Source: Microbacterium sp. CGR2 (GTDB lineage: Bacteria > Actinomycetota > Actinomycetes > Actinomycetales > Microbacteriaceae). From it: DNA of 64,000 nt. Where the stretch lies: the NCBI RefSeq assembly GCF_003626735.1, contig NZ_RBHX01000001.1, positions 3,224,001 to 3,288,000 of the forward strand. The letters are read 5' to 3'. A program made the translations under genes and the position numbers. Position 1 is the first letter of the stretch; every line of letters begins with the position of its first letter. Below are positions 200 to 19,780 of the stretch, in pieces. The notes under the pieces are model-generated. The model ran no database searches. It saw only the letters and a list, made by a program, of their open reading frames with translations, and was not told the origin of the DNA.

Positions 200-1765
200 C
201 TAGAACCGATTCTTGGACGGAGTCGATTTGTGGCGAACTCGCGGCTCGCTACGTCCACTCGGGTCCTCGACAGCATCGGACAGATCGATGCGATAGTGCT
301 CCTCGACTCCCGAGGACTGCCCCTTTCGCACGTGGTGACCTCGCTCGATCGCCGAAACAGTAAGGCTCTGCACGCGCGGTTCCGGCAGGGCGATCATCCG
401 GATCTCGACGATCAGATCGCCGCGCTCCCCCTCGATGCGCCAGCGCAGCTCATCCTCGTTCGCGGCCGTGACGATGCGCTTCGCGAAATCGGACTGCGCC
501 GAGCGCACGCCGCCGATCTGCTCTCGATCGCGAGCCAGCCCAGCGTCGCGCACCTCCGCCGGGACGTCCCGCAGGAGGTTGTCGGCCAACAACGGGAGCT
601 GCGCCGCCCGTTCGCCCCGCAGCAGCGCGGCGTCGATCGCGCCGGCGGCTTCGATCGTCGCACGCCAAGGCCGCACCACCGCCGCGGGCGCATCGACGCC
701 CTCGAGCACCTCCCTCAGCGCCGTCGTCGCCACCCGCTTGGCGCCGAACTCATCGGAGTTGCCGAAAGCGACGACACCGACGCCGGTCGCGGCGTGCCAG
801 CGCATGTGCGACGAGAATCCGGGGAGTCCGCCCGAATGCTGCACGATCCGTCCGAACCGACGATCATCCTCGATGACGAGGCCGTATCCGTATCCCGCCC
901 CGGTGAGGATCCGGCCGTCGGGCGCATCGACCGCGACGGGGATCGGTGTGTGCGGCTGCTGCATCCCGAGGCGCGACTGGACCGAGAGCACCTCGGGCCG
1001 AGTGGGCCGCGAGGTGAACGCGGAGCCGAGGAAGTCCATCCACGCCGCGATGTCGTCCACCGTGCTGAACATGCTTCCGATGCACGCCAGCGCACCCGAT
1101 CCGACGAACGGCTCGGCCGCGAACGTCGCACCCCCATCGAAGGTGCGATATCCGCCGGCCAGCGCCGCGCCGTCATAGCCGTCGGCGACGTAAGCCGTGC
1201 GGTCGAGGCCGAGAGGTGCGAGCAGAACTTCGTGTACGACATCTTCCACCGCGCGTCCTGTCACGTTCTCCACGGCCCGGCCGAGCAGTGCCTGGCCGAG
1301 ATTCGAATACTGATATGCGGTGCCGGGCGACGCAGACAGGGAGACTCCGCCGGCGAAGAGCGCAGCGATCCGTTCGCGAGACGCCCCGAGATTGCGATCA
1401 GCCCACGCGTTGTCCTCGCCGAGTCCCGCGCGATTGGAGAGGAGCAGATCCCCCGTCATCTCGACGTCGGCCCCGCGGTACCGCGCCCGCGCGTACGGGA
1501 CGTACCGGGTGATCGGCGCGTACAGGTCGATCAGTCCGCGGTCGCGCAGCACCAGCACCGCCGCACTCAGAAAACTCTTCGACATCGACGCGATCCGGAA
1601 GACCGTCTCCCGCGTGGTCGGGGCGCGAGGCCCAACCTCTCCGTGGGCGGCGACGGCCAGGACGCGCCCACCCCGACACACCGCGACGACGGATGCCGGG
1701 GCGAGCCGCCGGGCGGATTCATCGAGTCCGGCGCTCACCGCGTGCTCGGCGACAGGGTCCCACAT
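200..1765 (-). CDS. Class C beta-lactamase/DD-peptidase-fold serine hydrolase
   Basis: A 521-residue penicillin-binding-protein-fold hydrolase. It has SMSK at residues 60-63 (nucleophile Ser60 and Lys63), YSN at 153-155 and HSG at 310-312, the three active-site boxes of class C beta-lactamases, DD-peptidases, D-aminopeptidases and esterases. The ATG at 1765 is chosen for its GAGGACGCC ribosome site; the reading frame upstream of it is out of character. There is no signal peptide or lipobox, so the enzyme is probably cytoplasmic, which argues against antibiotic resistance and for hydrolysis of imported peptides. The C-terminal ~150 residues beyond the catalytic domain are of unknown role. It lies 23 bp after the amidotransferase in a run of minus-strand genes. 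D-aminopeptidase-like activity fits the neighbourhood but is an inference. Confidence 0.85.
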   Translation of the reverse strand: MWDPVAEHAVSAGLDESARRLAPASVVAVCRGGRVLAVAAHGEVGPRAPTTRETVFRIASMSKSFLSAAVLVLRDRGLIDLYAPITRYVPYARARYRGADVEMTGDLLLSNRAGLGEDNAWADRNLGASRERIAALFAGGVSLSASPGTAYQYSNLGQALLGRAVENVTGRAVEDVVHEVLLAPLGLDRTAYVADGYDGAALAGGYRTFDGGATFAAEPFVGSGALACIGSMFSTVDDIAAWMDFLGSAFTSRPTRPEVLSVQSRLGMQQPHTPIPVAVDAPDGRILTGAGYGYGLVIEDDRRFGRIVQHSGGLPGFSSHMRWHAATGVGVVAFGNSDEFGAKRVATTALREVLEGVDAPAAVVRPWRATIEAAGAIDAALLRGERAAQLPLLADNLLRDVPAEVRDAGLARDREQIGGVRSAQSDFAKRIVTAANEDELRWRIEGERGDLIVEIRMIALPEPRVQSLTVSAIERGHHVRKGQSSGVEEHYRIDLSDAVEDPSGRSEPRVRHKSTPSKNRF

Positions 1766-1788
1766 GGCGTCCTCACGTTCGGGGAAGG

Positions 1789-2502
1789 TCACACACGCCC
1801 CGCGCCGAGAAGTTCGTCCACGAAGCCATCGACCAACGCTCTGCTGGCTGAAGTGTTGTGCGCGTCCACACGCTCCGCGGCCGAGATCAGATCGGTGAGC
1901 GACCACCCTTCACCCCGCAACGCTGCATCGTCCCACCGGGCGAGATCCGCGGCGGATGCCTCCGGGTGGAACTGCACGCCACGGACACGCTGCCCCAGCC
2001 GGAACGCCTGATTCTGCACAGCCGCACTGGACGCCAGGAGGACGGCCTCTGCGGGGAGCCGCGTGATCATGTCCTGATGATTCTCGATCATCGGTGCCCC
2101 CTCCCCGAGCGCGGAGAGCACGGCATCCTTTCGCCCTTCGGCCGTCGGCAGGATCTGCGTCGCCCCGCGTTCGACCGGGCCCGTCTTCTCGCGCACCTCG
2201 CCGCCGGCGACGTGGGCGAGCAGCTGTCCGCCGAGGCAGATGCCGAGCGTCGGCACGTCGGCGGCGATCGCCTCGGCGGCGAGCGCCCGCTCGGCCCGCA
2301 GCCAGGGAGCCCGGTGATCGTCGTCGGGCATGAGGCCTCCACCGAGCAGCACGAGCCCGTCAAAGCCGTCGAGAGTCGCAGGCAGTGGTTCCGCGGCGCC
2401 CACGACGGCCACGACCTCCACCCCGCGGGCATGCAACCATGTCGCGAAGCGCCGGGGCCCCGAGTTCGGGGAGTTCACGACCGCGAGCACCCGAGCGCTC
2501 AC
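1789..2502 (-). CDS. Class I glutamine amidotransferase-like protein
   Basis: A 237-residue protein with the triad-type amidotransferase fold: an oxyanion region LLGGG near residue 45, the nucleophile elbow GICLGGQ with the catalytic Cys, and the C-terminal FHPE containing the catalytic His and Glu. It resembles GMP-synthase-type or gamma-glutamyl-hydrolase-type stand-alone GATases. The GTG start at 2502 overlaps the stop of the M19 dipeptidase by 4 nt (GTGA) and has GATGAGGA in front. Being translationally coupled to dipeptidase and racemase genes, it may cleave a gamma-glutamyl or amide bond of an imported peptide or amino-acid derivative. That role is a guess; the fold is clear. Confidence 0.8.
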   Translation of the reverse strand: MSARVLAVVNSPNSGPRRFATWLHARGVEVVAVVGAAEPLPATLDGFDGLVLLGGGLMPDDDHRAPWLRAERALAAEAIAADVPTLGICLGGQLLAHVAGGEVREKTGPVERGATQILPTAEGRKDAVLSALGEGAPMIENHQDMITRLPAEAVLLASSAAVQNQAFRLGQRVRGVQFHPEASAADLARWDDAALRGEGWSLTDLISAAERVDAHNTSASRALVDGFVDELLGAGRV

Positions 2503-3614
2503 GAAGTCCTCATCCGCGTCAATGTGTCGACCGCCGGCGCCAGAGCGGCCCTCGGCGGCGTGCGCGTGTCCCCGGCGAGGAACGCCGCATGGTCGGCGTC
2601 GGATGCCTCGAGCACACGCAGGACGTTCTCGTGCGCAGCGCCGGCGAGGTCGGCCTCTGACCATCCGCGGCTTCGGAGCTCGGCGAACAGAGCGGGATAG
2701 TGGGAAACGTCGTCGAGCCCCTCCGGCATCGCGTCGGTGCCATCGAAGTCGGCGCCGATCCCCACTGCGTGCGCACCGGCGACGTCGCGAATGTGGTCGA
2801 GGTGGTCTGCGACGTGTGTCACGCCCACCGAGGGCGCATCGCCTTCGGCACCGGCCGTCCACCAGGCGTGACGCTCCTGGGAGAGGAAGGTGGGGACGAA
2901 AGGCACCATGACGATGCCACCTTGAGCGCCGATTGCCGCGAGCACGTCGTCCGGCACGTTGCGCGGGTGGTCGCACAGTGCCAGGGCGCCCGAGTGACTC
3001 ACCATCACCGGCCGTGATGTCTCGTCGAGCGCGTCGCGCATGGTGCTCGGCGCGACGTGCGAGAGGTCGACGAGCACGCCGATTCTGTTCATCTCTCGCA
3101 CCACCTCGCGGCCGAAAGCGGTGAGACCGCCATGGATGGCCCGATCCGTGGCGGAGTCAGCCCACGAAATGGTCCGCGACCAGGTGAGGGTCATGTACCG
3201 CGCCCCCAGTCGCGCGAACTGTCGGAGCACCGCCAGCGAGCCGCCGATCTGTTCGCCGCCCTCGATGCCGATGAGCGAGGCGATCCGCCCCTCGACCATC
3301 GCCGCACGCACGTCCGCCGCCGTACGCGCGAACTTCATCCGTTCGGGGTGGGCGTCGACGAGACGGTGCACGAAATCGATCTGCTCCAGCGTGGCGACCA
3401 CCTGCTCGGCTCCTTCCAGCACAGGATCCACCCAAACCGACCAGAACTGTCCGGCTACCCCGCCCGCGACGAGCCGCGGGATGTCTGTGTGCAGTTCTGC
3501 GACCGCATCTCCGAGAGCCTCGGCGCCGTAGCCGAGCGTGAGGCGACTTCTCCACGGCAGGTCGTTGTGGCCGTCGATGACCCGATCGACGGCGGTCGAT
3601 GACAGAGCGCTCAT
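2499..3614 (-). CDS. Membrane-dipeptidase family (M19) zinc dipeptidase
   Basis: A 371-residue member of the renal/membrane dipeptidase family. It opens with the metal-binding DGHNDLPW near residue 14 and also shows IGIEGGEQIGG, a DLSH motif followed by SHSGA, and the late GIGADFDG block. All are hallmark regions of the binuclear-zinc M19 barrel. M19 enzymes cleave dipeptides, and many accept or prefer a D-residue at the C-terminal position. The ATG at 3614 follows GGGAGGGAATGAG and starts 1 bp after the racemase stop; the 3' end overlaps the GATase by 4 nt. No signal peptide, so it acts on imported dipeptides. Family assignment is strong; the D-residue preference is inferred from context. 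Confidence 0.92.
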   Translation of the reverse strand: MSALSSTAVDRVIDGHNDLPWRSRLTLGYGAEALGDAVAELHTDIPRLVAGGVAGQFWSVWVDPVLEGAEQVVATLEQIDFVHRLVDAHPERMKFARTAADVRAAMVEGRIASLIGIEGGEQIGGSLAVLRQFARLGARYMTLTWSRTISWADSATDRAIHGGLTAFGREVVREMNRIGVLVDLSHVAPSTMRDALDETSRPVMVSHSGALALCDHPRNVPDDVLAAIGAQGGIVMVPFVPTFLSQERHAWWTAGAEGDAPSVGVTHVADHLDHIRDVAGAHAVGIGADFDGTDAMPEGLDDVSHYPALFAELRSRGWSEADLAGAAHENVLRVLEASDADHAAFLAGDTRTPPRAALAPAVDTLTRMRTS

Positions 3615-3615
3615 C

Positions 3616-4785
3616 TCATTCCCTCCCCGTATCCAGCGACGCCGACATCGCGGCTTTCTCCGCGGCATCCGTCGCGGCGGAATCGAAGACCCGCGTCGCA
3701 CCCCGCTCGATGCGCTCGACCAGCACCTCGTGCCCGATCCCCGGAGAACCAGGCACCTGCACCCGGCCGTCGATCGCGAGAACAGGCGGATCGATGATGT
3801 CTGCGGCGTAGTACTTGTCGGACCCGGAGACGTCCGACGGCAGCAGGAATCCCGGCAGCGACGAGATCGCGACGTTCGCGGCGCGGCCGATGCCGAACTC
3901 GTGCATTCCGCCGCACCACACCGGGATACCCGCGTCGAGTGCGATGTCGTGCGCGGCTCGGGCGACGCTGAGTCCGCCCATGCGGGACACCTTGATGTTG
4001 AGCACACGGCCGGCCTGCAGCCGCATCATGGTGTGCAGATCGCCGAGTGCCACGACGGATTCGTCGAGGCACACATCAGTGTCGAGTCGCGCCTGCAAAC
4101 GGGAGTGCGCCACGAGGTCCCTGGGCTCGAACGGCTGCTCGATCATCGTGAGCCGTTCCCGGTCGAGCGCCTGGAACACCTCCGTGGAGTCCGGGTCGTC
4201 CGGGTAGGCGCCGTTGGCGTCGACATGCAGGTCGAGGTCCGGGTAGGCGGCACGCACCGCGCGAACCGGTTCCACGTCCCAGCCGGGTGCGATCTTGAGC
4301 TTGACGCGTCCGTAACCGGCCGCACGCTGCAGGCCGACCTGCGTCAACAAGTCATCGATCGACGGCTCGATCCCGAGTGAGACCCCGGCGACGACCTCCG
4401 TCCTCGTCCCGCCGAGCGCTGCCGACAGAGGCACGCCTCGCGAGCGGGAGAACAGGTCCCAGATCGCGCCCGCGAACCCGGCCTTGGCGAACTCGTGCCC
4501 GCGGATCCTGACCCACGCCGACTCCAGCTCAGCGGGCTTCTCGCCTTCTCGTCCGAGCAGAGCGGGAACGAGGTAGCGGGTCGCGATCTCCCAGGACGTG
4601 GCCGTCGTCTCGGCGCCGAAATACGGATCACTCGGCGAGGCGATCTCGCCCCATCCGGTGCGACCGTCCTCGTCCGTCACTTCCACGAGGATGTGCTCTA
4701 TGCGGGACTTGCGGTGCGAGCTCGTCTCGAAGGAGTGCAGCAGCGGCTGCCGGAGGATGAACAGCCGAGTGCGGGCGACCTTCAC
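3616..4785 (-). CDS. N-acylamino-acid racemase / o-succinylbenzoate synthase-type enolase-superfamily enzyme
   Basis: A 389-residue enolase-superfamily protein (capping domain, then a TIM barrel). The catalytic lysines are in VKLKI (KxK) and LNIKVSRMGG; metal-ligand motifs HVDANGAYP, IEQP and CLDES are present. The stretches KIAPGWDVEPVRAVR and GIPVWCGGM..GRAANVA match the NSAR/OSBS (MenC type 2) subgroup, known from Amycolatopsis N-acylamino acid racemase, more closely than the L-Ala-D/L-Glu epimerases. GTG start at 4785 overlaps the SIS gene by 4 nt (GTGA) after GAGGACGAGGA. It sits in one operon with a COG3375-like GNAT and beside a divergent M20 amidohydrolase, the trio of the N-succinylamino-acid racemization route, so NSAR is favoured over menaquinone synthesis. 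Confidence 0.85.
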   Translation of the reverse strand: MKVARTRLFILRQPLLHSFETSSHRKSRIEHILVEVTDEDGRTGWGEIASPSDPYFGAETTATSWEIATRYLVPALLGREGEKPAELESAWVRIRGHEFAKAGFAGAIWDLFSRSRGVPLSAALGGTRTEVVAGVSLGIEPSIDDLLTQVGLQRAAGYGRVKLKIAPGWDVEPVRAVRAAYPDLDLHVDANGAYPDDPDSTEVFQALDRERLTMIEQPFEPRDLVAHSRLQARLDTDVCLDESVVALGDLHTMMRLQAGRVLNIKVSRMGGLSVARAAHDIALDAGIPVWCGGMHEFGIGRAANVAISSLPGFLLPSDVSGSDKYYAADIIDPPVLAIDGRVQVPGSPGIGHEVLVERIERGATRVFDSAATDAAEKAAMSASLDTGRE

Positions 4786-5471
4786 TCCTCGTCCTCCGCA
4801 TCGTTGCGCATGCGGCTCTGCTCCGGAGTGTAGAGGCCGAGGCGGGCGACCAACCGATCGCGCTCGGCAAGACGGCGACGCGCCCCCTTCGCACTCACCG
4901 TCGTCAGGGCGCTCAACAGATGACACACGGCTGCCACGGGGGTCGGCGAGTCGGCGTAAGACGCGGAGCCCGTGCGGACACGGATGAGCGAGGCGGCGAG
5001 CGGAGCCAGCGGCGCATCCTCACTGTCGGTGATGACGACGAGTTGACCGCCCGCCTCGTGGAACAGACGCCCCAGACGGACGGTCTCCTCGCGATAGCGG
5101 CGCAGAGAGAACGCGATGAGGACGTCCGATGCGCGCACGTCCGTGAGCACCGTCAACGGCTGTAGTGCGTGACCGTCGACGAGGAAGACGTTCGACAGGG
5201 TCGCCGACAGGTCCGCGTTGAGGAGCTGCGCGTACGCGCCCGACTTGCCTTCGCCCGCGATGTAGCGGCGCCGGGCACCCAGCAGGAGCGCGGCGGCCTG
5301 CGGCACCTGCGCCGAACTGCTCAACTCGTCGAACGTCTGCATGAGCGACCTTTGTTCCGCCTCGATGATGCGGGCCTGGATGCTCTCCGCCGACAGATTC
5401 GTGCGGATGCGCTCCCCGAACCGGTCGCCCGGTGAGACGAGGTCGCGATCTTCGTGATCGTGGTCGGTCAT
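4782..5471 (-). CDS. SIS-domain protein, RpiR/MurR-like but without the helix-turn-helix
   Basis: A 229-residue protein. About 60 N-terminal residues resemble the linker of RpiR-type regulators (IEAEQRSLMQTFDEL), then comes a SIS phosphosugar-binding domain: YIAGEGKSGAYA, the central DVLIAFSLRRYREETV and QLVVITDSEDAPLA. RpiR/MurR regulators carry an N-terminal HTH of about 75 residues before this; here it is absent and upstream sequence belongs to the GNAT gene (ATGA overlap). It may sense a sugar phosphate or muropeptide-derived ligand without binding DNA, or be an isomerase-like protein. The C-terminus is highly charged. Translationally coupled on both sides, so co-produced with the GNAT and racemase. 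Confidence 0.75.
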   Translation of the reverse strand: MTDHDHEDRDLVSPGDRFGERIRTNLSAESIQARIIEAEQRSLMQTFDELSSSAQVPQAAALLLGARRRYIAGEGKSGAYAQLLNADLSATLSNVFLVDGHALQPLTVLTDVRASDVLIAFSLRRYREETVRLGRLFHEAGGQLVVITDSEDAPLAPLAASLIRVRTGSASYADSPTPVAAVCHLLSALTTVSAKGARRRLAERDRLVARLGLYTPEQSRMRNDAEDEE

Positions 5472-6253
5472 GGTGCGCCTTTCCCCGGGATAGCACGGTA
5501 CGCGGCAGTGTGCTCATCGATTCGTGACGCCGCCACAAGCACTTCGCCCTGTCGGAAGGCTACGGTCAGCGTCTGATCGAGCGCGCGGCGAACCTCGGAG
5601 CGCTCCATCGAAGACAGCAGGTCCGCGCGCAGCGGGATGCCGATCCAGCTGCCGTTCTCGGCGGCGGCCTCGTATCCCCAGTCCGCACGCCCCAGAGCAG
5701 GCGGGTCGCCGAGAACGCTCAGGTCACGTCGAGCATCGACGGCGGTGAGATCCCATGAGACCACAAGGCGGTCCGTGTCAGGGCGAGCGTAGTAGTCGCG
5801 CTCGAAGGCGATCCCCACCGCCCCGAGTGAGCTGAGGTTGAAGTGCGCATTCCGGGCGAGCAGCGGATCGAACGTCCAGCGCATCGTCCGCTGCCCCCAG
5901 CGGAGGGCGACGTCACGCTGCGCGAGCTTCAGCGCCTGACCGACTCCCCTGCCCTGATGCTCCTGATCGACGGCTGCCGCCTGAGAGTAGTGATAGTCCG
6001 CTCCGCGCCCGTCTCGACCCGCGAAGCCGTAAGCGAACCCGATGAGGCGCCCGTCCGACGCGAACGCTCCCACTGCCGATCCCCCGTTGCGTGCCAGCGC
6101 AGTGAGGAGATTCGTGTTGAGTGTGTACTCGCTCTCGGAATAGGCGAACACGCGGGCATAGAGCGCCGCCGCCTCGCGGAACTCGCGATAGCCGGTGAGT
6201 TCGTGGCAGCTGTAGCCGATGCCGGCGTCGGTCGCCACCGAAGTGTGAGGCAC
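5468..6253 (-). CDS. GNAT acyltransferase, COG3375-like, probable amino-acid N-acyltransferase
   Basis: A 261-residue GNAT protein. The acyl-CoA pyrophosphate loop is QEHQGRGVGQALKLAQR, followed by the family-specific MRWTFDPLLARNAHFNLSSLG. That block marks the group of GNATs found beside N-succinylamino-acid racemases in other bacteria, where one member succinylates D-amino acids. Start is GTG at 6253 with AGGAA 8 nt upstream; a TAATAT -10 candidate lies at 6277-6282. It is the first gene of the minus operon, divergent from the M20 amidohydrolase across 93 bp. Inferred reaction: acyl-CoA + D-amino acid to N-acyl-D-amino acid, feeding the racemase. Fold is secure, substrate inferred. Confidence 0.8.
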   Translation of the reverse strand: MPHTSVATDAGIGYSCHELTGYREFREAAALYARVFAYSESEYTLNTNLLTALARNGGSAVGAFASDGRLIGFAYGFAGRDGRGADYHYSQAAAVDQEHQGRGVGQALKLAQRDVALRWGQRTMRWTFDPLLARNAHFNLSSLGAVGIAFERDYYARPDTDRLVVSWDLTAVDARRDLSVLGDPPALGRADWGYEAAAENGSWIGIPLRADLLSSMERSEVRRALDQTLTVAFRQGEVLVAASRIDEHTAAYRAIPGKGAP

Positions 6254-6346
6254 GATACGTTTCCTAAGATCGAGGAATATTACCTGCTGCGAGCGATGTT
6301 ATCGGCGGGTTGCATAGCTATCAAGAGGCAGATACGGTTCGTAAAC
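6254..6346. promoter_or_regulatory. Divergent promoter region between GNAT and M20 operons
   Basis: This 93-bp AT-richer gap is the only one between the two arms of the locus. Minus strand: TAATAT (6277-6282) is a good -10 for the GNAT gene. Plus strand: TTGCAT (6310-6315), a 17-nt spacer and TACGGT (6333-6338) put transcription start at or next to the GTG at 6347, so the M20 mRNA is probably leaderless. The hexamer GATACG occurs at 6254-6259 and 6331-6336 in similar contexts (GATACG-n-TTC-n-TAA), and again twice before the binding-protein gene, suggesting a shared operator. No transcription-start data exist to confirm this. Confidence 0.5.
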
Positions 6347-7495
<1,149 letters not shown>

Positions 7496-7776
7496 GCAGA
7501 GGCTCGAGTACGCTATTCTCGATTGCAACGATACGATCCGGATCTCCATGCGATCGAATCGAAGGACAGCGCGCTGCCCTCGCGTGCACATGGCGCAAAG
7601 TCGCGTATTCATGGGCCCAAAAGGACGTCAGCGCACCTGGTTCGACCTGGGGCTCACAAATTATTGTTGAGCGATACGGATCAGATCCCTTGACCCTGAG
7701 CCGGTATTCCGCTTGCATGGTCTCCACCGACCCGCCTTCATCGTGAATCCGGGCGGTGCCCGAAGGGACTTCATCC
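7496..7776 (+). promoter_or_regulatory. Upstream region of the peptide-importer operon with palindromes
   Basis: This 281-bp non-coding stretch holds two sites built on GATACG followed by a GATCC-type palindrome: GATACG at 7530-7535 runs into the perfect 10-bp palindrome GATCCGGATC (7535-7544), and GATACG at 7673-7678 runs into GGATC-A-GATCC (7678-7688). A promoter candidate directly follows the second site: TTGACC (7690-7695), 17 nt, TTGCAT (7713-7718). The ribosome site of the binding-protein gene is GAAGGGA at 7762-7768. The rest shows no coding sense on either strand. Operator role is inferred. Confidence 0.45.
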
Positions 7777-9606
7777 ATGCGTCTTGCTCCCCGCTCCCGA
7801 ACAGTGCGAAGTCTGGCCGCCGCTGCGATCGCCTCCGCTCTCCTCATCTCCGCGCCCGTCAGCGCCCAGGCACGGACGGTCAGCGCCGCGACCGAATCTC
7901 CCGCACCCGATACAACACTGCGCATCGCGACCTCGGGCTTCGTCGACACGTTCAACCCGTTCATCTCGATCTACCTCGCACCGACCAACGTCATCCGGTA
8001 TGTGTACGAGTCCCTGGTGCAGAACGACGCCGAAGACGGGTCGCCCACCAAGGGCCTCGCCGACTCCTGGGACGTGACCGACGGCGGCCAGACCTGGACC
8101 TTCACCCTGCAGGATGGACTCGAGTGGTCCGACGGCGAGCCCATCACCTCGGCGGATGTGAAGTACACCTACGAGCAGATGATGACCGTGCCCGCCCTCG
8201 GCACGGCGAACGGCAACCTGGTCTCGAACTTCGAATCGATCGACGCACCGGACGAGAAAACCGTGGTCATCAACCTCAAGACTCCGCAAGCCCCGAACCC
8301 GGGCTCTGAGATCCCGGTCGTCCCGAAGCACATCTGGGAGGCGGTCGACGACCCGACGACGTTCGCGAACGACACGGACGTGGTCGGCTCCGGACCGTTC
8401 GTGCTGGAGAGCTACGCCGCAAACCAGTCGATCGTTCTGAAGGCGAATGAGACGTTCTGGCGCGGTGCGCCGAAGATCGACAGGATCCAGTACGTCTATT
8501 ACACGAACTCGGACGCGCAGGTGCAGGCGCTGAAGGCAGGAGATGTCGACCTCGTCACCGGACTCACCCCGACGCAGTTCGACGCCCTCGAGGGCGTCGA
8601 CGGCATCACGACCCATTCCGGCGAAGGGCGCCGTTACCACTCGATCAGCATCAACGTCGGGCAGCAGACCCGCGACAACGTTCCCTACGGGACCGGAAGC
8701 GAAGCGCTGAAGGACGTCGAGGTCCGCCAGGCTCTCCGGCTCGGGACCGACACGAAGACGCTGCTCGACAAGGTCCTCGCCGGCGAGGGCGTGCAGGCGA
8801 CAAGCTTCATCCCCTCGTCCTTCCCCAAGTGGCACCTGTCCGACGAGGACGACGTGATCGTCGGGTTCGATCCCGAGGCGGCCAAGGCGAAGCTCGACGA
8901 CGCCGGCTGGGTCCCCGGAGCCGATGGAATCCGGGAGAAAGACGGGGCTAGGCTCACACTGCGACTGCTGACGGATGCCGAAGACGTCAACGAGCAGTCG
9001 ATCGCCGACTTCTTCGTCCCCTGGATGAAGGACATCGGCATCGAGATCACGGTCGAATCCACCGACTCGGACACGATCAGCGCGAAGGCCGTGAGTGGTG
9101 ACTACGACCTGTACTTCAGTGGATGGTCCGTCAACCCCGACCCCGACTACCAGCTGGGCATCAACACCTGCACCAACCTGCCCACTGCGACCGACGGCAC
9201 CGGCGGAACCACGCAGGACGGCTACTGCAACCCGGAATTCGACGAGATGTACGCGGAGCAGCGTTCGGAGATCGATCCGGAAAAGCGCCAGGAGATCGTG
9301 CACGACATGCTCGCGCTGAACTACGAGGACACCGCGCAGGTCGCCACCTGGTACGCGAATTCCCTGGAGGCATACCGTTCCGATCGCTTCACCGGATTCA
9401 CCCTGCAGCCGAAGGAGACCGGGATCATCGCCAACCAGGCCGGTTACTGGGGCTACCTCACCGTCGAGCCGGTCGAAGGCGCCACCGCCGGCGGCACCGG
9501 GACGAACACCGGCCTGATCATCGGAGGCATCGTGGTCGGAGTGGTGCTCATCGGCGGAGTGGTCTTCTTCCTGATTCGACGTCGCAACATCGCCGACGTC
9601 GAATGA
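7777..9606 (+). CDS. Peptide ABC importer substrate-binding protein, membrane anchored (DppA/OppA family)
   Basis: A 609-residue family 5 extracellular solute-binding protein. The start at 7777 is preferred over an in-frame ATG 21 nt upstream because GAAGGGA sits 8 nt before it. Residues 1-34 form a Sec signal peptide ending in an AQA-type cleavage site; there is no lipobox Cys. The body carries family features (TLRIATSGFVDTFNP, ADSWDVTDGGQTWTF, VKYTYEQMM). The C-terminus has one transmembrane segment (about 578-602, TGLIIGGIVVGVVLIGG) followed by RRR, so the domain is held by a C-terminal helix instead of a lipid. It binds peptides outside the cell for the permeases and ATPase that follow. 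Confidence 0.92.
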   Translation: MRLAPRSRTVRSLAAAAIASALLISAPVSAQARTVSAATESPAPDTTLRIATSGFVDTFNPFISIYLAPTNVIRYVYESLVQNDAEDGSPTKGLADSWDVTDGGQTWTFTLQDGLEWSDGEPITSADVKYTYEQMMTVPALGTANGNLVSNFESIDAPDEKTVVINLKTPQAPNPGSEIPVVPKHIWEAVDDPTTFANDTDVVGSGPFVLESYAANQSIVLKANETFWRGAPKIDRIQYVYYTNSDAQVQALKAGDVDLVTGLTPTQFDALEGVDGITTHSGEGRRYHSISINVGQQTRDNVPYGTGSEALKDVEVRQALRLGTDTKTLLDKVLAGEGVQATSFIPSSFPKWHLSDEDDVIVGFDPEAAKAKLDDAGWVPGADGIREKDGARLTLRLLTDAEDVNEQSIADFFVPWMKDIGIEITVESTDSDTISAKAVSGDYDLYFSGWSVNPDPDYQLGINTCTNLPTATDGTGGTTQDGYCNPEFDEMYAEQRSEIDPEKRQEIVHDMLALNYEDTAQVATWYANSLEAYRSDRFTGFTLQPKETGIIANQAGYWGYLTVEPVEGATAGGTGTNTGLIIGGIVVGVVLIGGVVFFLIRRRNIADVE

Positions 9607-9612
9607 GCCCTG

Positions 9613-9655
9613 CGAGATGCCGCGGGGGCGAGCCCTTCGCCCCCGCGGCATCTCG
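9613..9655 (+). terminator. Perfect 19-bp hairpin between binding protein and permease genes
   Basis: Left arm 9613-9631 and right arm 9637-9655 are exactly complementary over 19 bp and enclose the loop GCCCT. No T-run follows, and the permease gene continues 20 bp later. It is best read as an intercistronic stabilizer or partial attenuator, a usual way to make more binding protein than permease, and not as a full terminator. Confidence 0.75.
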
Positions 9656-9675
9656 TCCGCTGTAGAGGAGACCCC

Positions 9676-10719
9676 ATGTCCAACGCGGTACCCCCATCCA
9701 CCTCCGTCATCGCCACCAGCGCGGCCGCCGACGAGCAGCCGACCGGTGTCGGTGCGCTGCGCTATCTCCTGGTGAAACTCGGCGGCGCGGCGATCAGCAT
9801 GGCCATGGTCATCCTGCTCGGATTCTTCGCCTTCAAGATTCTGCCGGGCGACCCGGTCGCCTCGGTCGCTCGAGAACGCGGCATGAGCGCTGAGCAGGCC
9901 GAGCAGCTCCGGGAGCAGCTCGGCCTCAACAAGCCTCTGTGGCAGCAGTTCTTCGACTATCTCGGCAACGTGTTCACCGGCAACTTCGGGACGAGCTACG
10001 TCTACCGCACCTCTGTCGCCGAGCTGATCGGCGACTACTTCTGGAACACGATCCTGCTCACCGGTACCGCCGCGATCATCGCGATCGCCCTCGGACTCTG
10101 GCTCGGACAGAAAGCGGCGTGGAAACACGGATCCACGTTCGACAAGATCGCCTCGGGAACGTCGCTCGTCTTCTGGTCCGTCCCGACGTTCTGGCTGGCG
10201 CTGCTGCTGCTGATGGTCTTCGGTGGCACGCTGCACTGGTTCCCCACCGGGGGCATGGTGTCGCCCAACCCTCCGACGGATCCGATCGGCGTCGTGCTCG
10301 ACGTCGTCTCACACATGGTCCTCCCCGTCGTCACCATGGTCGCCGTCGTCTACGCCCAGTACCTCATGGTCATGCGCAGTTCTCTCCTCGAGGAGATGGG
10401 CGCCGACTACCTCACCACCGCACGGGCAAAGGGTCTTCGCGAGGACCTCGTTCGCCGCCGGCACGCCGTCCCGAACGCGCTGCTGCCGACCGTCACTCTC
10501 GTCTTCATGCACATCGGCGGACTCATCGCCGGGGCGGTGACGGTCGAGACGGTCTTCTCCTGGCCGGGCCTGGGCAAGCTCACGTTCGAGGCGATCTCCG
10601 GCCCTGATCTTCCCCTGCTGCAGGGCACCTTCGTGGTCTTCTCGGCAATCATCATCGTGATGAACCTCATCGCCGATCTCATCTACCGTCAGCTCGACCC
10701 GAGAGTGAGGCGCGCATGA
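9676..10719 (+). CDS. Peptide ABC importer permease, DppB type
   Basis: A 347-residue inner-membrane permease with six predicted helices. The first is near residues 33-52; then comes the periplasmic segment typical of DppB/OppB (LPGDPVASVARERG, LREQLGLNKPLWQQF). The cytoplasmic EAA loop reads YLTTARAKGLREDLVRRRHA, near residue 250, and contacts the ATPase. The ATG at 9676 follows GAGGAG. The last codons overlap the next permease by ATGA. It imports peptides together with DppC and the fused ATPase. Confidence 0.93.
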   Translation: MSNAVPPSTSVIATSAAADEQPTGVGALRYLLVKLGGAAISMAMVILLGFFAFKILPGDPVASVARERGMSAEQAEQLREQLGLNKPLWQQFFDYLGNVFTGNFGTSYVYRTSVAELIGDYFWNTILLTGTAAIIAIALGLWLGQKAAWKHGSTFDKIASGTSLVFWSVPTFWLALLLLMVFGGTLHWFPTGGMVSPNPPTDPIGVVLDVVSHMVLPVVTMVAVVYAQYLMVMRSSLLEEMGADYLTTARAKGLREDLVRRRHAVPNALLPTVTLVFMHIGGLIAGAVTVETVFSWPGLGKLTFEAISGPDLPLLQGTFVVFSAIIIVMNLIADLIYRQLDPRVRRA

Positions 10720-11630
10720 GCACCACGACATCCTCAATCCGTTCTCCACGCGCACTCGCCTGGCATCGCCGCGGCGCTGCGTTCGCGGACTTCTGCCGAC
10801 AGTTCTCGCACCACCGTGCGGGGATGGTCGGCCTGATCTTCCTCATACTCGTCGCCGCCGTCGCCATCCTGGCACCGGTGATTGCCCCCGCCAGCATGCT
10901 CGATGTCACCAAGCTCGTCGACGTGCAGCGCTTCGCCCCGCCATCCTGGGAGCACCCGCTCGGCACCGACCACCAGGGTCGCGAGATCTGGGTACGCATG
11001 GTGTGGGGAGCGCGCGTGTCACTGCTCGTCGGCCTCGCGGCGACGGCGATGTCCATGGTCATCGGCACCCTCGTCGGTCTCTCGGCGGGTCATTTCACCG
11101 GTTTCTTCGGCTCGCTCATGATGCGCATCATCGACTTCTTCCTGGTGCTGCCGTCGCTCATCCTGGCAATCGTGCTCTCCTCGGTCCTGAGCCGCGGGGT
11201 GTGGACGATCATCATCGCCATCGGCCTCACCTCCTGGGCCGGGACCGCCCGCGTCGTGCGAGCGCAGACACTCTCCGTCGAGTCCCGCGACTACATCGAG
11301 CGGTCGCGGGCACTCGGCGCCGGACACTGGCACATCATCATCAAGCACCTCCTGCCCGGAGTCCTCCCGCTGGTACTCGCCAACACGACGCTCACGGTCG
11401 GTTCCGCGATCATCGCCGAGTCCACCCTCGCCTTCCTGGGCCTCGGCGACACCACGATGCAGTCGTGGGGCTCGATCCTCAAGAACGCCATGGACGTGTC
11501 CGCGGCGACGAGCGGGTACTGGTGGTACGTGCTCGTTCCCGGCCTGGCCATCGTCCTCGTCGTGCTGGCCTTCACTCTCATGGGCCGCGCCGTCGAGAAC
11601 ATCACCAACCCGATCCTAAGGACCCGGTGA
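10716..11630 (+). CDS. Peptide ABC importer permease, DppC type
   Basis: A 304-residue permease of the DppC/OppC class. It has an N-terminal helix (about 33-55), then HPLGTDHQGREIWVRMVWGA, a hallmark of this subfamily, and the EAA loop SRDYIERSRALGAGHWHIII. It starts by ATGA overlap with the DppB gene, so the two are made in fixed proportion. The ATPase gene starts 1 bp after its stop. Confidence 0.93.
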   Translation: MSTTTSSIRSPRALAWHRRGAAFADFCRQFSHHRAGMVGLIFLILVAAVAILAPVIAPASMLDVTKLVDVQRFAPPSWEHPLGTDHQGREIWVRMVWGARVSLLVGLAATAMSMVIGTLVGLSAGHFTGFFGSLMMRIIDFFLVLPSLILAIVLSSVLSRGVWTIIIAIGLTSWAGTARVVRAQTLSVESRDYIERSRALGAGHWHIIIKHLLPGVLPLVLANTTLTVGSAIIAESTLAFLGLGDTTMQSWGSILKNAMDVSAATSGYWWYVLVPGLAIVLVVLAFTLMGRAVENITNPILRTR

Positions 11631-11631
11631 C

Positions 11632-13281
11632 ATGCCCGATCTCATCTTCGAGGACGTATCGATCTCCTACCGGACCTCCGGACGATCCGAACGCGACGAG
11701 ATCGCGGCCGTCCGAGGCGTCTCGCTCACTCTCCCTGCGGGTGAGACGCTCGGGATCGCCGGGGAGTCCGGTTCGGGAAAGTCGACCCTCGCCATGAGCG
11801 TGCTGCGCCTGCTCCCGCGCAACGCCACCCTCACCGGCCGCGTGCTGCTGGGAGACGCCGACGTCGCGACACTGTCGTTCGGGCAGCTCCGCGCCGTCCG
11901 ATGGGCGCAGACGTCGATCGTGTTCCAGGGCGCGATGCACTCGCTCAACCCCGTCCGAACCGTGGAATGGCAGATCCTCGAGGCTCTCGAGCTCCACTCC
12001 ACGGAGCAGTGGGCGACGGAAAAGGCGCGGAAGACGCGCGCACTCGAGCTGCTCGACATCGTCGACCTCGCGCCGCAGAAGCTGCAGTCTTACCCGCACG
12101 AACTCTCCGGCGGACAGAAGCAGCGGGTGATGATCGCGATGGCGCTCGCGTGCGACCCCGAGGTGATCATCGCCGACGAGCCCACCACGGCACTCGATGT
12201 GATCGTGCAGAAGCAGATCCTCGACATGATCTCGCGGCTGGTGTCCGAACGCGGCATCTCGATGCTGATGATCAGCCACGACCTCTCCGTGCTCGCCACG
12301 GCCTGCCGACGGATCGCCATCATGCGTGACGGCGAACTCGTGGAGGTCGGCGATGCGTTCACTGTCTGCACGAACCCGACGCAGCCCTACACCCGGCAGC
12401 TGGCGGATGCGTTTCCCACCATCGGAGACCCCGCTTCCCGCCTCGCCCCGGTCACGCGCCACGGGCGCGACGCGGATGAGGTGCCTGAGACGCGCCACAG
12501 CGACGAGGTGCTGCTGGAGGCGCGCGGCCTCAACGTCACCTACCGCTCGGGCGGACGTCCCGTCCACGCGGTGCGAAACGTCGACCTCGCGGTACGCAAG
12601 GGTGAGATCGTGGCCTTGGTCGGGCAGTCCGGCTCAGGAAAGTCCACCCTCGCCCGGGCCCTGATGGGCCTGCAGCCGACCGACGCCGGCTCGGAGATCC
12701 TGTTCGGCGGCACCGCCGTTCCCGCGCGGGGGCGGGGGCTCACGAAGTTCCGCTCCCAGGTGCAGCTGGTTCTCCAGGACCCTTGGGCGGCGCTGAACCC
12801 GAAGCACAGCGTGTATGAGTCCGTGGCCGAGGGACTGCGCGTCCAGCACTACCCCGGAGATGAACGCGAGCGTGTGGCGCGCAGCCTGGCCGAGGCGGAG
12901 CTCACTCCTCCCGAGCGTTATTTCGGTGCGATCCCGCAGGAGCTCAGCGGCGGTCAGCGCCAGCGCGTCGTCATCGCCGGCGCTCTGGCCGTGCAACCGC
13001 AGATGCTGATCGCCGACGAACCGGTGGCTTCGCTGGATGCCTCGGTTCGCGGCGAGATCCTCGGCCTGCTCCTGTCTCTGCGCCGCAGACTCGGCCTATC
13101 CGCTCTCGTGATCACCCACGACCTCGGGCTCGCGTGGAACATCGCCGACAGTGTCGCCGTGATGTACCACGGGGAGATCGTCGAGTACGGGCCCACGGAG
13201 CAGATACTGCTGGACCCGCAACACGACTACACGCGCCACCTTCTCGCAGCCGCTCCGCGCATCGAGGAGAAGACCGCATGA
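11632..13281 (+). CDS. Fused double ABC ATPase for peptide import (DppD-DppF type)
   Basis: A 549-residue protein with two complete nucleotide-binding domains. The first has Walker A GESGSGKST near residue 44, signature LSGGQKQR and Walker B VIIADEPTTALD. The second has Walker A GQSGSGKST near residue 331, signature LSGGQRQR and Walker B MLIADEPVASLD. Most dipeptide importers use two separate subunits; fusion in one chain is common in actinobacteria. The ATG at 11632 lies 1 bp after the DppC stop with AAGGA upstream. The stop overlaps the S66 carboxypeptidase start (ATGA), tying import and peptide hydrolysis together. Confidence 0.94.
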   Translation: MPDLIFEDVSISYRTSGRSERDEIAAVRGVSLTLPAGETLGIAGESGSGKSTLAMSVLRLLPRNATLTGRVLLGDADVATLSFGQLRAVRWAQTSIVFQGAMHSLNPVRTVEWQILEALELHSTEQWATEKARKTRALELLDIVDLAPQKLQSYPHELSGGQKQRVMIAMALACDPEVIIADEPTTALDVIVQKQILDMISRLVSERGISMLMISHDLSVLATACRRIAIMRDGELVEVGDAFTVCTNPTQPYTRQLADAFPTIGDPASRLAPVTRHGRDADEVPETRHSDEVLLEARGLNVTYRSGGRPVHAVRNVDLAVRKGEIVALVGQSGSGKSTLARALMGLQPTDAGSEILFGGTAVPARGRGLTKFRSQVQLVLQDPWAALNPKHSVYESVAEGLRVQHYPGDERERVARSLAEAELTPPERYFGAIPQELSGGQRQRVVIAGALAVQPQMLIADEPVASLDASVRGEILGLLLSLRRRLGLSALVITHDLGLAWNIADSVAVMYHGEIVEYGPTEQILLDPQHDYTRHLLAAAPRIEEKTA

Positions 13282-14234
13282 AAACCGTCGAACGCTCCCC
13301 CTATCTCGACACCGCCCCCCTCACCGCAGGCGACACGGTCGCCCTGGTTTCACCTGCCGGTCCCGGGAACGAGGAGAGTCTCCAGCGTGCGGTCGGATAC
13401 TACGAGTCCTGGGGCCTCCGGGTGCGTGTCGGGGTTTCAGCGCTCACCCCGCACCCGCGCGCGAAGTATCTGGCAGGTCCGGACGAGGATCGCCGCCGAG
13501 ACCTCGTCGACGCCTGGCTCGACCCCGAGGTGGACGCGGTCGTGGCAGTGCGGGGCGGGTACGGGGCACTACGGCTGCTCGACGGCATCGACTGGGAGCG
13601 GATGCGCGGCGCGGCCGCGCGCCGGGACGGCCGTCCGAAGCTGCTCACGGGCTCTTCGGACATCACGGCGCTGCACGAGGCGTTCCGCGCGCACCTCGAC
13701 CTGCCGACACTCTTCTGCCCGATGCCGGGGACCAATGTCTTCCGAGACTCCGAGTTCATCCGAGACGACGTACGGCGCTGGCTGTTCGAACCGTGGGAGG
13801 GGCGTGAGCTCATCGGTCCCAAGACCGAGATCATGGTGGCAGGACGAGCCGAGGGGACGTTCACGGGTGGCAACCTGAGTCTTCTGGCCGCGGCCATGGG
13901 CGCACCGGAGTCGTCGGCGCCGCCATCCGGCATCCTCTTCCTGGAGGACATCACCGAGGAACCGTACCGACTCGACGGCTTCCTCACCCAGTTGCGTCGA
14001 GGAGGTCGTCTGGCCGCGGCGTCCGGGGTCGTGCTCGGTTCGTGGCACGAATGCGGCGACGTGGACCTGATCCACTCGCTCATGCGCGACGAGTTCGGCC
14101 ACGCTGCGGTGCCGGTCCTCTGGGAGCAGGGGTTCGGTCACGATCCGAACGCCCTCAGCATCCCGCTCGGAGTCGACGGTGTCCTCGACGCGAGCGGCGA
14201 CCAGCCGCGTCTCACGGTCGGGCGTACGGCGTGA
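13278..14234 (+). CDS. S66 family LD-carboxypeptidase
   Basis: A 318-residue protein of the LD-carboxypeptidase family (LdcA/YkfA). GSSDITALHE contains the nucleophile (Ser127, before Asp128). The Glu is in LFLEDITEEPYRLDG, and the His is in the late FGHDPNALSIPLG. VRGGYGALRLL near residue 91 is also typical. Family members remove a D-amino acid from an L-centre, as in the terminal D-Ala of the murein tetrapeptide. It has no signal peptide, so it acts in the cytoplasm on imported peptides. It is coupled to the ATPase by ATGA and to the next hydrolase by GTGA. The pairing with a Dpp importer resembles the dpp-ykf arrangement of Bacillus subtilis. Confidence 0.92.
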   Translation: MKTVERSPYLDTAPLTAGDTVALVSPAGPGNEESLQRAVGYYESWGLRVRVGVSALTPHPRAKYLAGPDEDRRRDLVDAWLDPEVDAVVAVRGGYGALRLLDGIDWERMRGAAARRDGRPKLLTGSSDITALHEAFRAHLDLPTLFCPMPGTNVFRDSEFIRDDVRRWLFEPWEGRELIGPKTEIMVAGRAEGTFTGGNLSLLAAAMGAPESSAPPSGILFLEDITEEPYRLDGFLTQLRRGGRLAAASGVVLGSWHECGDVDLIHSLMRDEFGHAAVPVLWEQGFGHDPNALSIPLGVDGVLDASGDQPRLTVGRTA

Positions 14235-15067
14235 TCGTCCTCCCCGACCTGGACAAGCGCGCAACCTGGTCGATCCGCATCCTGGATGCCGACACAGGAA
14301 CCGTCGTCGCGGAGCGCACCCCGAATGTGCGGTGCGAGACAGCGAGCATCGGGAAGATCTTCCTGCTTCTCGAGGTCGCGCGACGCCTCGAGGACGGCAG
14401 CCTGTCGGACGAGCAGCGGATCACCATCCCGGAGGAGCACCGTGTCGCGGACTCCGGTCTGCTCTACCTCATGCGTGATCAGCGCCTGACGGTCCACGAT
14501 GCCGCGCTCCTCGTCGGAGCGGTCAGCGACAACCTCGCCACGAACGCCCTCATCCACCTGTGCGGGCTCGAGGCGGTGCGCGGCGTCGCACCGACGCTCG
14601 GCTACACCGACACGACCCTTCTCGATTACATCCGCAACGAGCGGACGCCCGACCTGCCATGGACGCCGTCTTACGGCACGGCCTCCGAGCTCGCGGATGT
14701 GATGCGGCGAATGGGTGCCGGGGAGCTCTTCTCCGCCGCCGTGTGCGACCGGGTCCTGTCGTGGCTCGCGGCCGACGCCGACACCTCGATGACCGCGGAC
14801 GCTTTCCTCCTGGATCCGCTCGCGCACGTCGAGGCGGAGTACCAGGGCATGGTTCTGCGCCACAAAACCGGGAGCGTGGGGTTCGCTCGGGTCGACGTGG
14901 GGCTGCTGTCCGGTCCCGCAGGCCGGGTCGCCTACGCGGTCGCTGCCAACTGGAAGGACTCTGCTGCAGATCTCAGAGCACCTGTGCTCGACGGAATGCG
15001 GGCTATCGGGGAGCAACTGCGGGCGTTCGTCACGGGGCGAGCCCGGGAACAGGGCGTGGCCCGATGA
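14231..15067 (+). CDS. Class A beta-lactamase-like serine hydrolase (first of tandem pair)
   Basis: A 278-residue protein with the three class A boxes in order and near-canonical spacing: SIGK at 39-42, SDN at 99-101, KTG at 212-214. A RNER segment near 136-139 could provide the general-base Glu of the omega loop. No signal peptide is present: the first residues already belong to the folded domain (WSIRILDADTG). A cytoplasmic location makes a penicillinase role unlikely and suggests a peptidase or amidase for D-configured substrates. GTG start at 14231 overlaps the S66 stop by GTGA. The following gene is clearly a paralogue, so the pair arose by tandem duplication. Confidence 0.82.
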   Translation: MIVLPDLDKRATWSIRILDADTGTVVAERTPNVRCETASIGKIFLLLEVARRLEDGSLSDEQRITIPEEHRVADSGLLYLMRDQRLTVHDAALLVGAVSDNLATNALIHLCGLEAVRGVAPTLGYTDTTLLDYIRNERTPDLPWTPSYGTASELADVMRRMGAGELFSAAVCDRVLSWLAADADTSMTADAFLLDPLAHVEAEYQGMVLRHKTGSVGFARVDVGLLSGPAGRVAYAVAANWKDSAADLRAPVLDGMRAIGEQLRAFVTGRAREQGVAR

Positions 15068-15876
15068 GCGCTATCACGATCGACTTGCCGCGCGAGAACG
15101 GGACGGAGTGGTCCGTCCTGGTCCGCGATGTGGACACCGGCGAAGAGCTTCTCCGCGAGAACGCGCGAGCGGCGCTCGCCACTGCCTCCGTGGGCAAGAT
15201 CTTCCTCCTGCACCGGCTTCTCGCCGAAGTCGATGCCGGTACCCGAAGCCTGGAAGAACGGGTCACCCGGCGACCGGTCGAGACGATCGACGACTCCGGA
15301 CTCTGGTATCTGCTGCAGGCGGCGGAACTCTCGCTCTACGACGTCGCGGCGCTGATCGGCGCGGTCAGCGACAACGCGGCCACGAACACCCTGTGCCGGG
15401 TCATCGGTCTGCCCGCCGTCCAGCAGCACACGAGACAGCTGGGCTACACCGACTCCGCCCTCGACGACGTCATCCGCTGGCCGATCCCGCCCGGTGCTCC
15501 GCGAACGCTGTCGCACGGCACGGCGGAGGATCTGGTGCGCTTCATGTCACGTCTGGCCCTCGGTGACGATCTCAGCCCTTCCTCGGCCGACACGCTCAAG
15601 CGGTGGCTCGGGGCTGGGATGGACTTGTCCATGGTCGCCTCCGCGTTCGAACTCGACCCTCTCGCTCACTTCGGGTTCGACCGCGGGATCTGGCTCATCA
15701 ACAAGACCGGCACGATGTCCTCCGTCCGCGCCGACACCGGGATCGTGATGTCACCGACGCGCCGCATCGCCTTCGCCGTGGTCGCCAACTGGAACCGCGG
15801 CACGGACGGGCGAGGCCCGGTGCTCGCCGCCATGAACACGATCGGCGCGCAGATCCGGTCCGAGCTCGTCGGCTGA
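15064..15876 (+). CDS. Class A beta-lactamase-like serine hydrolase (second of tandem pair)
   Basis: A 270-residue paralogue of the preceding protein. SVGK at 42-45, SDN at 102-104 and KTG at 214-216 are intact. At the place where its neighbour has RNERTPDLP, this one reads RWPIPPGAP, so the candidate general-base Glu is missing. That may mean a different reaction or only acyl-enzyme chemistry. No signal peptide. It starts by ATGA overlap and ends the plus-strand operon; the 138 bp before valS contain the valS promoter candidate but no strong hairpin. Confidence 0.82.
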   Translation: MSAITIDLPRENGTEWSVLVRDVDTGEELLRENARAALATASVGKIFLLHRLLAEVDAGTRSLEERVTRRPVETIDDSGLWYLLQAAELSLYDVAALIGAVSDNAATNTLCRVIGLPAVQQHTRQLGYTDSALDDVIRWPIPPGAPRTLSHGTAEDLVRFMSRLALGDDLSPSSADTLKRWLGAGMDLSMVASAFELDPLAHFGFDRGIWLINKTGTMSSVRADTGIVMSPTRRIAFAVVANWNRGTDGRGPVLAAMNTIGAQIRSELVG

Positions 15877-16014
15877 CGGTCGCCGCTTCCTGCTCCCGCG
15901 CAGCGGCGCCGTGATGTCGCCGCGCTCTCCGCTGCGGCTCGGTAGACTGGCGGACACAAACCCACACTCAGGCACGCTCACACAGTGCCGCATACATCGC
16001 TCGAGGAGACCTTC

Positions 16015-18824: not shown

Positions 18825-18848
18825 CCGCCCGGTCGTTGCGACCCTCCC

Positions 18849-18883: not shown

Positions 18884-18894
18884 CTCCTCCCCCT

Positions 18895-19779: not shown

Positions 19780-19780
19780 A

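Follow-up and report, generated by a model that had tools for sequence, protein, structure and literature searches.

We describe a 14-gene locus of Microbacterium sp. CGR2 that lies at positions 200 to 15876 of the window, the whole 64-kb stretch of DNA analyzed (C1:3224001-3288000 of the genome; locus coordinates are positions within the window). We propose that it is a regulated salvage locus for short peptides containing D-residues, in which peptide import and digestion are joined to the conversion of D- into L-amino acids by an N-acyl racemase route, under the control of a SIS-domain protein and a promoter palindrome; we give this reading a probability of roughly three in four (0.74). A binding protein and a Dpp importer would take up the peptides, most plausibly cell-wall stem peptides, and cytoplasmic hydrolases (S66, M19, a class I glutamine amidotransferase [GATase]/C26-like protein, a class C-type protein and two Beta-lactamase2-type proteins) would degrade them. 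The freed D-amino acids would then be N-acylated by a GNAT acyltransferase, the N-acyl-D and N-acyl-L forms interconverted by a racemase of the N-succinylamino acid racemase/o-succinylbenzoate synthase (NSAR/OSBS) type, and the acyl group removed by an L-selective M20 hydrolase, which would draw the overall reaction from D toward L. The SIS protein may act as a dedicated sensor or regulator via the palindrome ATACG-N3-CGTAT, located in the M20/GNAT promoter region and 5' of the importer. We infer the activities, substrates, acyl donor, order of steps and the action of the SIS protein via the palindrome from protein family, active sites, co-conservation and co-occurrence.

A sequence-only reading of this DNA had described 14 complete genes in two divergent operons, and all 14 proved to be open frames with family matches; 8 of the 12 within-operon gene junctions are 4-nt overlaps. 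The minus-strand operon comprises the GNAT, SIS, racemase, M19, GATase and class C-type genes, and the plus-strand operon those for M20, a family 5 solute-binding protein (SBP), DppB, DppC, DppDF, S66 and the two Beta-lactamase2-type proteins. That reading had assembled the trio (GNAT, racemase and M20), the importer and the hydrolases, which are supported by the results below; it had given no functional role to the SIS gene or the amidotransferase and had not noted the promoter palindromes. The features are as follows.

200-1792 (or from an ATG at 1765), minus strand: class C beta-lactamase-fold serine hydrolase, D-aminopeptidase/AmpH-like (PF00144, 162 bits)
1789-2502, minus strand: class I glutamine amidotransferase (GATase)/C26-like hydrolase (PF00117, 71 bits; PF07722, 33 bits; GICLG and HPE motifs)
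2499-3614, minus strand: M19 dipeptidase, by family match only (PF01244, 367 bits)
3616-4785, minus strand: NSAR/OSBS-type N-acylamino acid racemase (TIGR01928, 279 bits)
4782-5471, minus strand: SIS-domain protein, RpiR relative without helix-turn-helix, proposed regulator (PF01380)
5468-6253, minus strand: GNAT acyltransferase, proposed D-amino acid N-acyltransferase (PF00583, 27.5 bits)
6255-6267: putative operator copy B (8/10), directly 5' of the GNAT start
6296-6324, minus strand: promoter-like TTGATA (6319-6324), 17-bp spacer and TAACAT (6296-6301) for the GNAT operon, found by reading
6332-6344: putative operator copy A (9/10), adjoining the M20 start
6347-7495, plus strand: M20 hydrolase, proposed N-acyl-L-amino acid deacylase (PF01546, 88 bits)
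7531-7543: operator-like copy (9/10) in the gap 5' of the importer operon
7674-7686: operator-like copy (8/10) in the same gap
7777-9606 (or from 7756), plus strand: family 5 solute-binding protein, SBP5 (PF00496, 294 bits)
9676-10719, plus strand: DppB-type permease (PF00528, 144 bits)
10716-11630, plus strand: DppC-type permease (PF00528, 102 bits; OppC_N)
11632-13281, plus strand: fused DppDF ATPase (two ABC_tran stretches and oligo_HPY)
13278-14234, plus strand: S66 L,D-carboxypeptidase (PF02016, PF17676; muramoyltetrapeptide carboxypeptidase model, 132 of 378 bits)
14231-15067, plus strand: Beta-lactamase2-type serine hydrolase 1 (PF13354, 120 bits; S..K, SDN and KTG motifs)
15064-15876, plus strand: Beta-lactamase2-type serine hydrolase 2 (PF13354, 119 bits; S..K, SDN and KTG motifs)

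The next gene (15985-18609) encodes a valine-tRNA ligase and lies outside the set.

The racemase trio and its conservation

A genome collection was searched with an alignment of the GNAT alone, which gave 186 places encoding a relative; the best 80 were kept as loci. Genes in these loci, some of which end at contig edges, were counted by tblastn with the window proteins at 50 bits or more. The racemase was present in 80/80 of these GNAT-fetched loci and the M20 in 79/80, always divergent from the GNAT (79/79) across a gap of 44 to 531 bp (median, 104). Co-conservation of GNAT, racemase and M20, as claimed earlier, was thus observed: the trio with a divergent M20 recurs in 79 of 80 loci across Actinomycetota, and the association is therefore not due to chance. 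The loci include Microbacterium, Leucobacter, Leifsonia, Agromyces, Pseudoclavibacter, Acidipropionibacterium, Saccharopolyspora, Jiangella, Cellulomonas and Actinoplanes, among others. A SIS gene was found in or beside the cluster in 77 of the 80, 75 by tblastn and two in Leifsonia loci, where it does not lie between GNAT and NSAR and instead comes right after both Beta-lactamase2 genes, with which the importer operon ends. All four of these genes were also present in each of 29 same-genus SIS loci examined. The other genes were counted in fewer of the 80 loci (M19, 35; GATase, 35; SBP, 34; DppB, 33; DppC, 33; class C, 32; S66, 30), the wider set being found chiefly in Microbacteriaceae. The locus is therefore built in two layers, a core quartet of GNAT, racemase, SIS and M20, and a layer for import and digestion. 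At E ≤1e-40, SIS orthologues were found in 32 of 247 genomes of the genus, 27 of 398 of the family (14 of 85 genera) and 2 of 396 of the phylum. For the GNAT, 71 of 297 genomes of the order had a match at E 0.001 and only 5, the own genome among them, one at ≤1e-40.

The racemase belongs to the NSAR/OSBS group and is proposed to racemize N-acyl amino acids. It passes the curated model of that group, TIGR01928, with 279.3 bits (cut-off, 200.65), and its nearest solved chains are N-acylamino acid racemases (255 to 261 bits), compared with 77.7 bits for 1jpm and 82.6 for 3jva of the dipeptide epimerase branch, against which the sequence-only reading had wanted it placed. Epimerase models are not reached (60 of 500 and 43 of 343 bits). 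Residues K162, K164, D189, E216, D241, K265 and R268 are kept in 81/81 rows. The first six align with solved NSARs, and we take the two lysines of catalysis and the three ligands of the metal to be among them; R268 corresponds in the alignment to the arginine of the Amycolatopsis NIKPGR and is presumably the second-shell arginine tied to NSAR activity (Arg266). In a tree of 33 proteins, in which the Deinococcus and MenC rows are long-branched and unsurely placed, the window racemase grouped with 12 other racemases of its locus type (98/99), and the Amycolatopsis and Deinococcus enzymes joined racemases of a second trio type (L121 and L124) and that of a distant relative, G489 (100/98).

A reading of the racemase as o-succinylbenzoate synthase (MenC), with neighbors that have nothing to do with it, could appeal to the name of TIGR01928, which is o-succinylbenzoate synthase, and to the bifunctional members of the group. 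We regard it as very improbable, since the racemase stays with GNAT and M20 in 79/80 loci and the genome encodes a dedicated actinobacterial-type MenC at C1:1839315-1840283 (469.7 bits; cut-off, 288). That second gene contradicts a role of the racemase as the menaquinone MenC of the genome, and the objection that it might be the only menC of the genome therefore fails.

The trio is not new as chemistry, and the locus is best read as a variant of the N-succinylamino-acid-racemase route. Geobacillus kaustophilus reportedly has a route of N-succinyltransferase, NSAR and L-desuccinylase (Sakai and colleagues, 2006); the window shares its three enzyme families and the proposed logic of D-to-L conversion. 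Compared by enzymes only, the window has in addition to the trio a peptide importer, six or more hydrolases, the SIS protein and the conserved palindrome. A second trio type occurs as an independent cluster in the genus of the window (L124 8103-18827, genome G260). Here, as in the window, NSAR, M20, class C and Dpp genes lie close to a GNAT, which is of another type. The racemase of this cluster forms a sister pair with the Amycolatopsis NSAR (99/96). Unlike those of the window, its genes are all on one strand; SIS gave no match there, and within 19 kb the palindrome does not exceed 8/10.

The M20 protein keeps H82, D84, D112, E146, E147, E171 and H355 in 78 to 80 of 80 rows. Its nearest solved relative is carboxypeptidase G2, an enzyme that frees L-Glu from N-acyl compounds, and because of this relationship D-Glu is our first guess for a main substrate. 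The GATase could open a gamma-D-glutamyl bond or D-isoglutamine, as its weak C26 match would suggest. A second, weaker GNAT (40% identity) was seen in the own genome at C1:661527-661934 (L120 9528-9944); no racemase was found alongside it, and a Beta-lactamase2 match lies 2 kb away.

Import, digestion and exchange of the racemase route

The five hydrolases named by the sequence-only reading had been said to lack a secretion signal. A simple hydropathy scan agreed, with no signal-like N-terminus in any of them, nor in GATase or M20, and with hydrophobic N-terminal stretches in SBP, DppB and DppC. The class C-type protein carries S..K at 69, Y.N at 162 and HSGG at 319 and scores far under the cut-offs of the AmpH and D-aminopeptidase models (65 of 266 and 56 of 443 bits). 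Because S..K and other active-site motifs of beta-lactamases are retained in three of the proteins, the locus might be taken for one of antibiotic inactivation with an attached importer, a reading that we find scarcely credible. The curated class A model is not passed by the Beta-lactamase2-type proteins (45 and 56 of 200 bits), nor the class C model by the class C-type protein (28 of 415 bits), no export signal was seen, and the genes sit among peptidases and D-amino-acid genes.

The SBP itself (7777-9606) combines an export signal with a membrane helix at the C-terminus, and no lipobox was seen by eye. The C-terminal hydrophobic stretch recurs in 30 of 32 relatives checked; a C-terminally anchored importer binding protein is unusual.

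With dpp-ykf of Bacillus subtilis the window shares the Dpp importer and S66. In that system, a dipeptide importer adjoins the L,D-carboxypeptidase YkfA and the enolase-superfamily YkfB, which epimerizes L-Ala-D-Glu directly, and YkfC is an NlpC/P60 peptidase (PMC2954226). Unlike dpp-ykf, the 14 window proteins gave no dipeptide epimerase or NlpC/P60 match in family scans. The racemase is NSAR-type, in line with the earlier proposal that an N-acylamino-acid route replaces the epimerase here. Similar racemization logic is found in DgcN-DgcA, described as an irreversible racemization pathway for acidic D-amino acids and their amides (PMC12363236, PMC10845958). DgcA is modeled in NCBIfam as N-acetyl-D-Glu racemase; the window differs in that its acylating enzyme is a GNAT and its racemase falls under the DgcA cut-off (81 bits; cut-off, 400). 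The earlier view that the trio chemistry is known and the exact gene set undescribed held in the literature searched, which covered few subscription journals: no description of the set was recognized, and neither the joining of an N-acyl racemase route to an importer and S66, nor SIS as a core member, nor the palindrome was found described there.

Neighboring genes in relatives bear on the substrate. In 11 of the 80 loci (five Saccharopolyspora, Haloactinopolyspora, Nocardiopsis, Actinopolymorpha, Streptosporangium, Nonomuraea and one metagenome-assembled genome), genes for a permease and an Amidohydro_3 protein follow NSAR; in L083, a Beta-lactamase2-type protein is encoded between them. The best NCBIfam model of the Amidohydro_3 protein is an unnamed amidohydrolase family (236 of 340 bits), and we read it as being of the D-aminoacylase kind. 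These genes are consistent with a locus that serves external N-acylated amino acids or N-acyl-peptides instead of free D-amino acids, with the GNAT secondary, as is the promiscuity of NSARs for many N-acyl groups (PMC7431475). Such a locus is unlikely, as the GNAT would be superfluous in it, yet the racemase adjoins the GNAT in all 80 GNAT-fetched loci, and S66 and M19 suit peptides with D-residues.

The proposed salvage of D-residue peptides gains from a natural gene exchange. In five loci (four Leucobacter and one Zimmermannella), the M19 operon ends with a D-amino-acid-dehydrogenase-like gene; the one scored reaches 145 of 383 bits. Two small genomes of genus g342 (G898 and G976; loci L220 and L221) have SIS, M19, GATase, the importer and both Beta-lactamase2 genes and lack GNAT, NSAR and M20; downstream of their GATase is a dehydrogenase-like gene with 68% identity to that of Zimmermannella. 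No racemase match was found anywhere in these two genomes (99 and 100% complete), and two other genomes of that genus have one. Two genomes of the window genus (G1252 and G1185) have an operon of SBP, DppB, DppC, DppDF and S66, followed by a dehydrogenase-like gene 61 to 62% identical to that of Zimmermannella. SIS and a class C gene are nearby, the M20 is of another type, and no GNAT or NSAR was present within the stretches read; G1252 has no close racemase (best, 30% identity). The four genomes, from two lineages, would have exchanged the N-acyl route for an oxidative one. The dehydrogenase-like gene in place of GNAT and racemase points to D-amino acids as substrate and fits them as the common one.

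Several observations weigh against the salvage role as proposed. DppB and DppC had no match in 47 of the 80 loci, some of them cut by contig ends, and peptide import therefore falls outside the old core. The GNAT has neither an NCBIfam match nor a solved relative, and its acyl donor and D-selectivity are therefore read from context. The scores of the dehydrogenase-like proteins, 145 and 169 bits, are under a cut-off of 383; the five Leucobacter and Zimmermannella loci hold the trio as well, suggesting that the dehydrogenase may add to the route rather than replace it, and G1185 has a 44% racemase relative elsewhere in its genome. Moreover, the cell-wall origin of the peptides would be a guess from the enzyme families.

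The SIS protein and the promoter palindrome

The SIS protein bears the database name MurR/RpiR family transcriptional regulator. It shares with those regulators the SIS domain and fold and differs from them in having no helix-turn-helix. The SIS domain (PF01380) was the sole match in 46/46 members scanned, with no helix-turn-helix (HTH_6) or other Pfam DNA-binding domain at E 0.01, and no earlier in-frame start exists for the window gene. A 340-amino-acid relative in G489 gave no helix-turn-helix even at E 1; an ordinary RpiR regulator was therefore rejected. The first structural match of the AlphaFold model (mean pLDDT, 87.5) was RpiR 3sho, followed by MurR structures with GlcNAc-6-phosphate and MurNAc-6-phosphate. 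Residues K76, D87, R125, Y126, D149, S171, S175, K195, R199, R200 and R204 are kept in 76/76 rows and R17 in 75. A role as an enzyme of the racemization pathway is made unlikely by genomes that keep SIS with the importer or hydrolases and not the racemase. Because SIS is retained alongside the importer and hydrolases even in the absence of GNAT and racemase, it is apparently the regulator of the locus.

The palindrome ATACG-N3-CGTAT was first noticed when the M20/GNAT gaps of the window and of 21 relatives were read. These 21 are included in the count over the 80 loci, for which single-base shuffles served as controls. In that gap the palindrome was present at 8/10 or better in 77 loci, at 9/10 or better in 67 and perfect in 27, compared with 3.4, 0.4 and 0 for the shuffles. 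As seen, all 77 SIS-bearing loci have it at 8/10 or better and none of the three loci without SIS (L080, L090 and L099), in whose genomes no close SIS was found (none, 3e-11 and 1e-13 at best). This co-occurrence is suggestive, the three losses being few and the lineages related. Among the 29 same-genus SIS loci, the palindrome was present in 28 (25 at 9/10); 14 of the 29 are new relative to the first 80, and 13 of these have it. The sole exception (L251) belongs to G1270, a genome with a divergent SIS. Here L252, whose SIS has 39% identity, carries an altered palindrome, TTATTTG-N3-CAAATAA, with the same layout in the same promoter gap, a score reached by 39 of 2000 shuffles; together they behave as co-variation of a protein and its site would. 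Palindromes TTATG-N3-CATAA in L253 and L254, two genomes that are close kin, were not significant alone (529 and 453 of 2000 shuffles).

In the window, copies A (6332-6344) and B (6255-6267) are 77 bp apart and flank TTGATA-17-TAACAT. Paired operators are frequent among the loci, and in 39 of the 41 with exactly two copies the spacing is 53 to 54, 64 to 65, 75 to 77 or 85 to 87 bp. This hints at helical phasing (best period, 11.1 bp; P = 0.024 in a conservative spacing-class test with lineages grouped by hand). Furthermore, a palindrome at 9/10 or better lies 5' of the importer operon in 17 of 29 relatives, where 0.14 would be expected.

With two mismatches, the palindrome occurs window-wide at chance level (10 found; 9.83 expected), and the case for it is therefore one of position and conservation. 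When the window's own 93-bp gap was searched freely for N3 palindromes, the result was not significant (563 of 2000 shuffles). In the own genome, 28 sites with one mismatch compare with 16 for the reversed pattern, and a regulon can therefore not be defined from them; an exact match to the 11-base core is rarer than its control (40 versus 86 sites). Exact copies in seven other genomes were few and none led to a transcription factor gene: no factor gene was recognized alongside the five copies outside the locus, one of which, in L160, gave no frame for judging.

The SIS protein may itself bind the operator, as an RpiR-family protein that has lost its helix-turn-helix and reads the paired sites by another surface, perhaps the conserved basic stretch N-terminal to the first long helix, with a cell-wall sugar phosphate or a D-peptide metabolite as the possible ligand; we put this forward tentatively, as possible and rather doubtful. 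To a different control of the same enzymes, we give a little under an even chance: SIS would be a partner that binds an effector or acts as an enzyme (a phosphosugar-binding modulator, for example), and the palindrome would be bound by an unlinked transcription factor. The 46 of 46 SIS proteins without a Pfam DNA-binding domain speak for an unlinked factor, and SIS folds also occur in sugar-phosphate enzymes. In addition, seven divergent SIS genes of genus g371 (44 to 46% identity to the window SIS) have no palindrome copy at 8/10 within 1.5 kb; two of them, viewed more widely, have a transporter-like gene and a class C gene nearby. The joint retention or loss of palindrome and SIS in the 80 loci (77 with both, 3 with neither), the altered palindrome that accompanies the divergent SIS of L252, and the few exact copies in the seven genomes with no recognized factor gene beside the five outside the locus argue against it.

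Implications and further variants in relatives

If the SIS protein does bind the operator, the RpiR family has a second way of binding DNA. If it does not, the name MurR/RpiR family transcriptional regulator is wrong for many database entries, and an unlinked factor is still to be discovered. As for the enzymes, the N-acylamino-acid racemase route gains a likely natural job, the salvage of D-residue peptides, in a broad actinobacterial set; this role is testable by simple deletions, and the natural exchange in which the racemase is lost and a D-amino-acid-dehydrogenase-like gene appears in the cluster points to the substrate.

Some variants were seen in relatives only. A class IV pyridoxal phosphate (PLP) gene lies between NSAR and M19 in many of them and is absent from the window. 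It was considered as a D-amino-acid transaminase and set aside, scoring nearer aminodeoxychorismate lyase; in L084 (11772) and L085 (12866) a perfect palindrome stands directly 5' of a class IV PLP gene of this lyase kind, about 50 bp from the start. In the distant relative G489 (L189 and L222), one region holds NSAR, GNAT, M20, S66, Dpp genes and the 340-amino-acid SIS, which has an N-terminal extension, along with a helix-turn-helix-cupin regulator and a diaminopimelate-decarboxylase-like gene. In 13 of the 80 loci (cluster c14; for example, L058 7586-8686), a Peptidase_C39-like protein (PF13529), missing in the window, is encoded between SBP and M20. Finally, L040 to L049, close relatives of the window locus, have second SBP, DppB, DppC and DppDF matches after the class C gene (about 17100-20700), 26 to 44% identical to those of the window, on the side that the window edge cuts.

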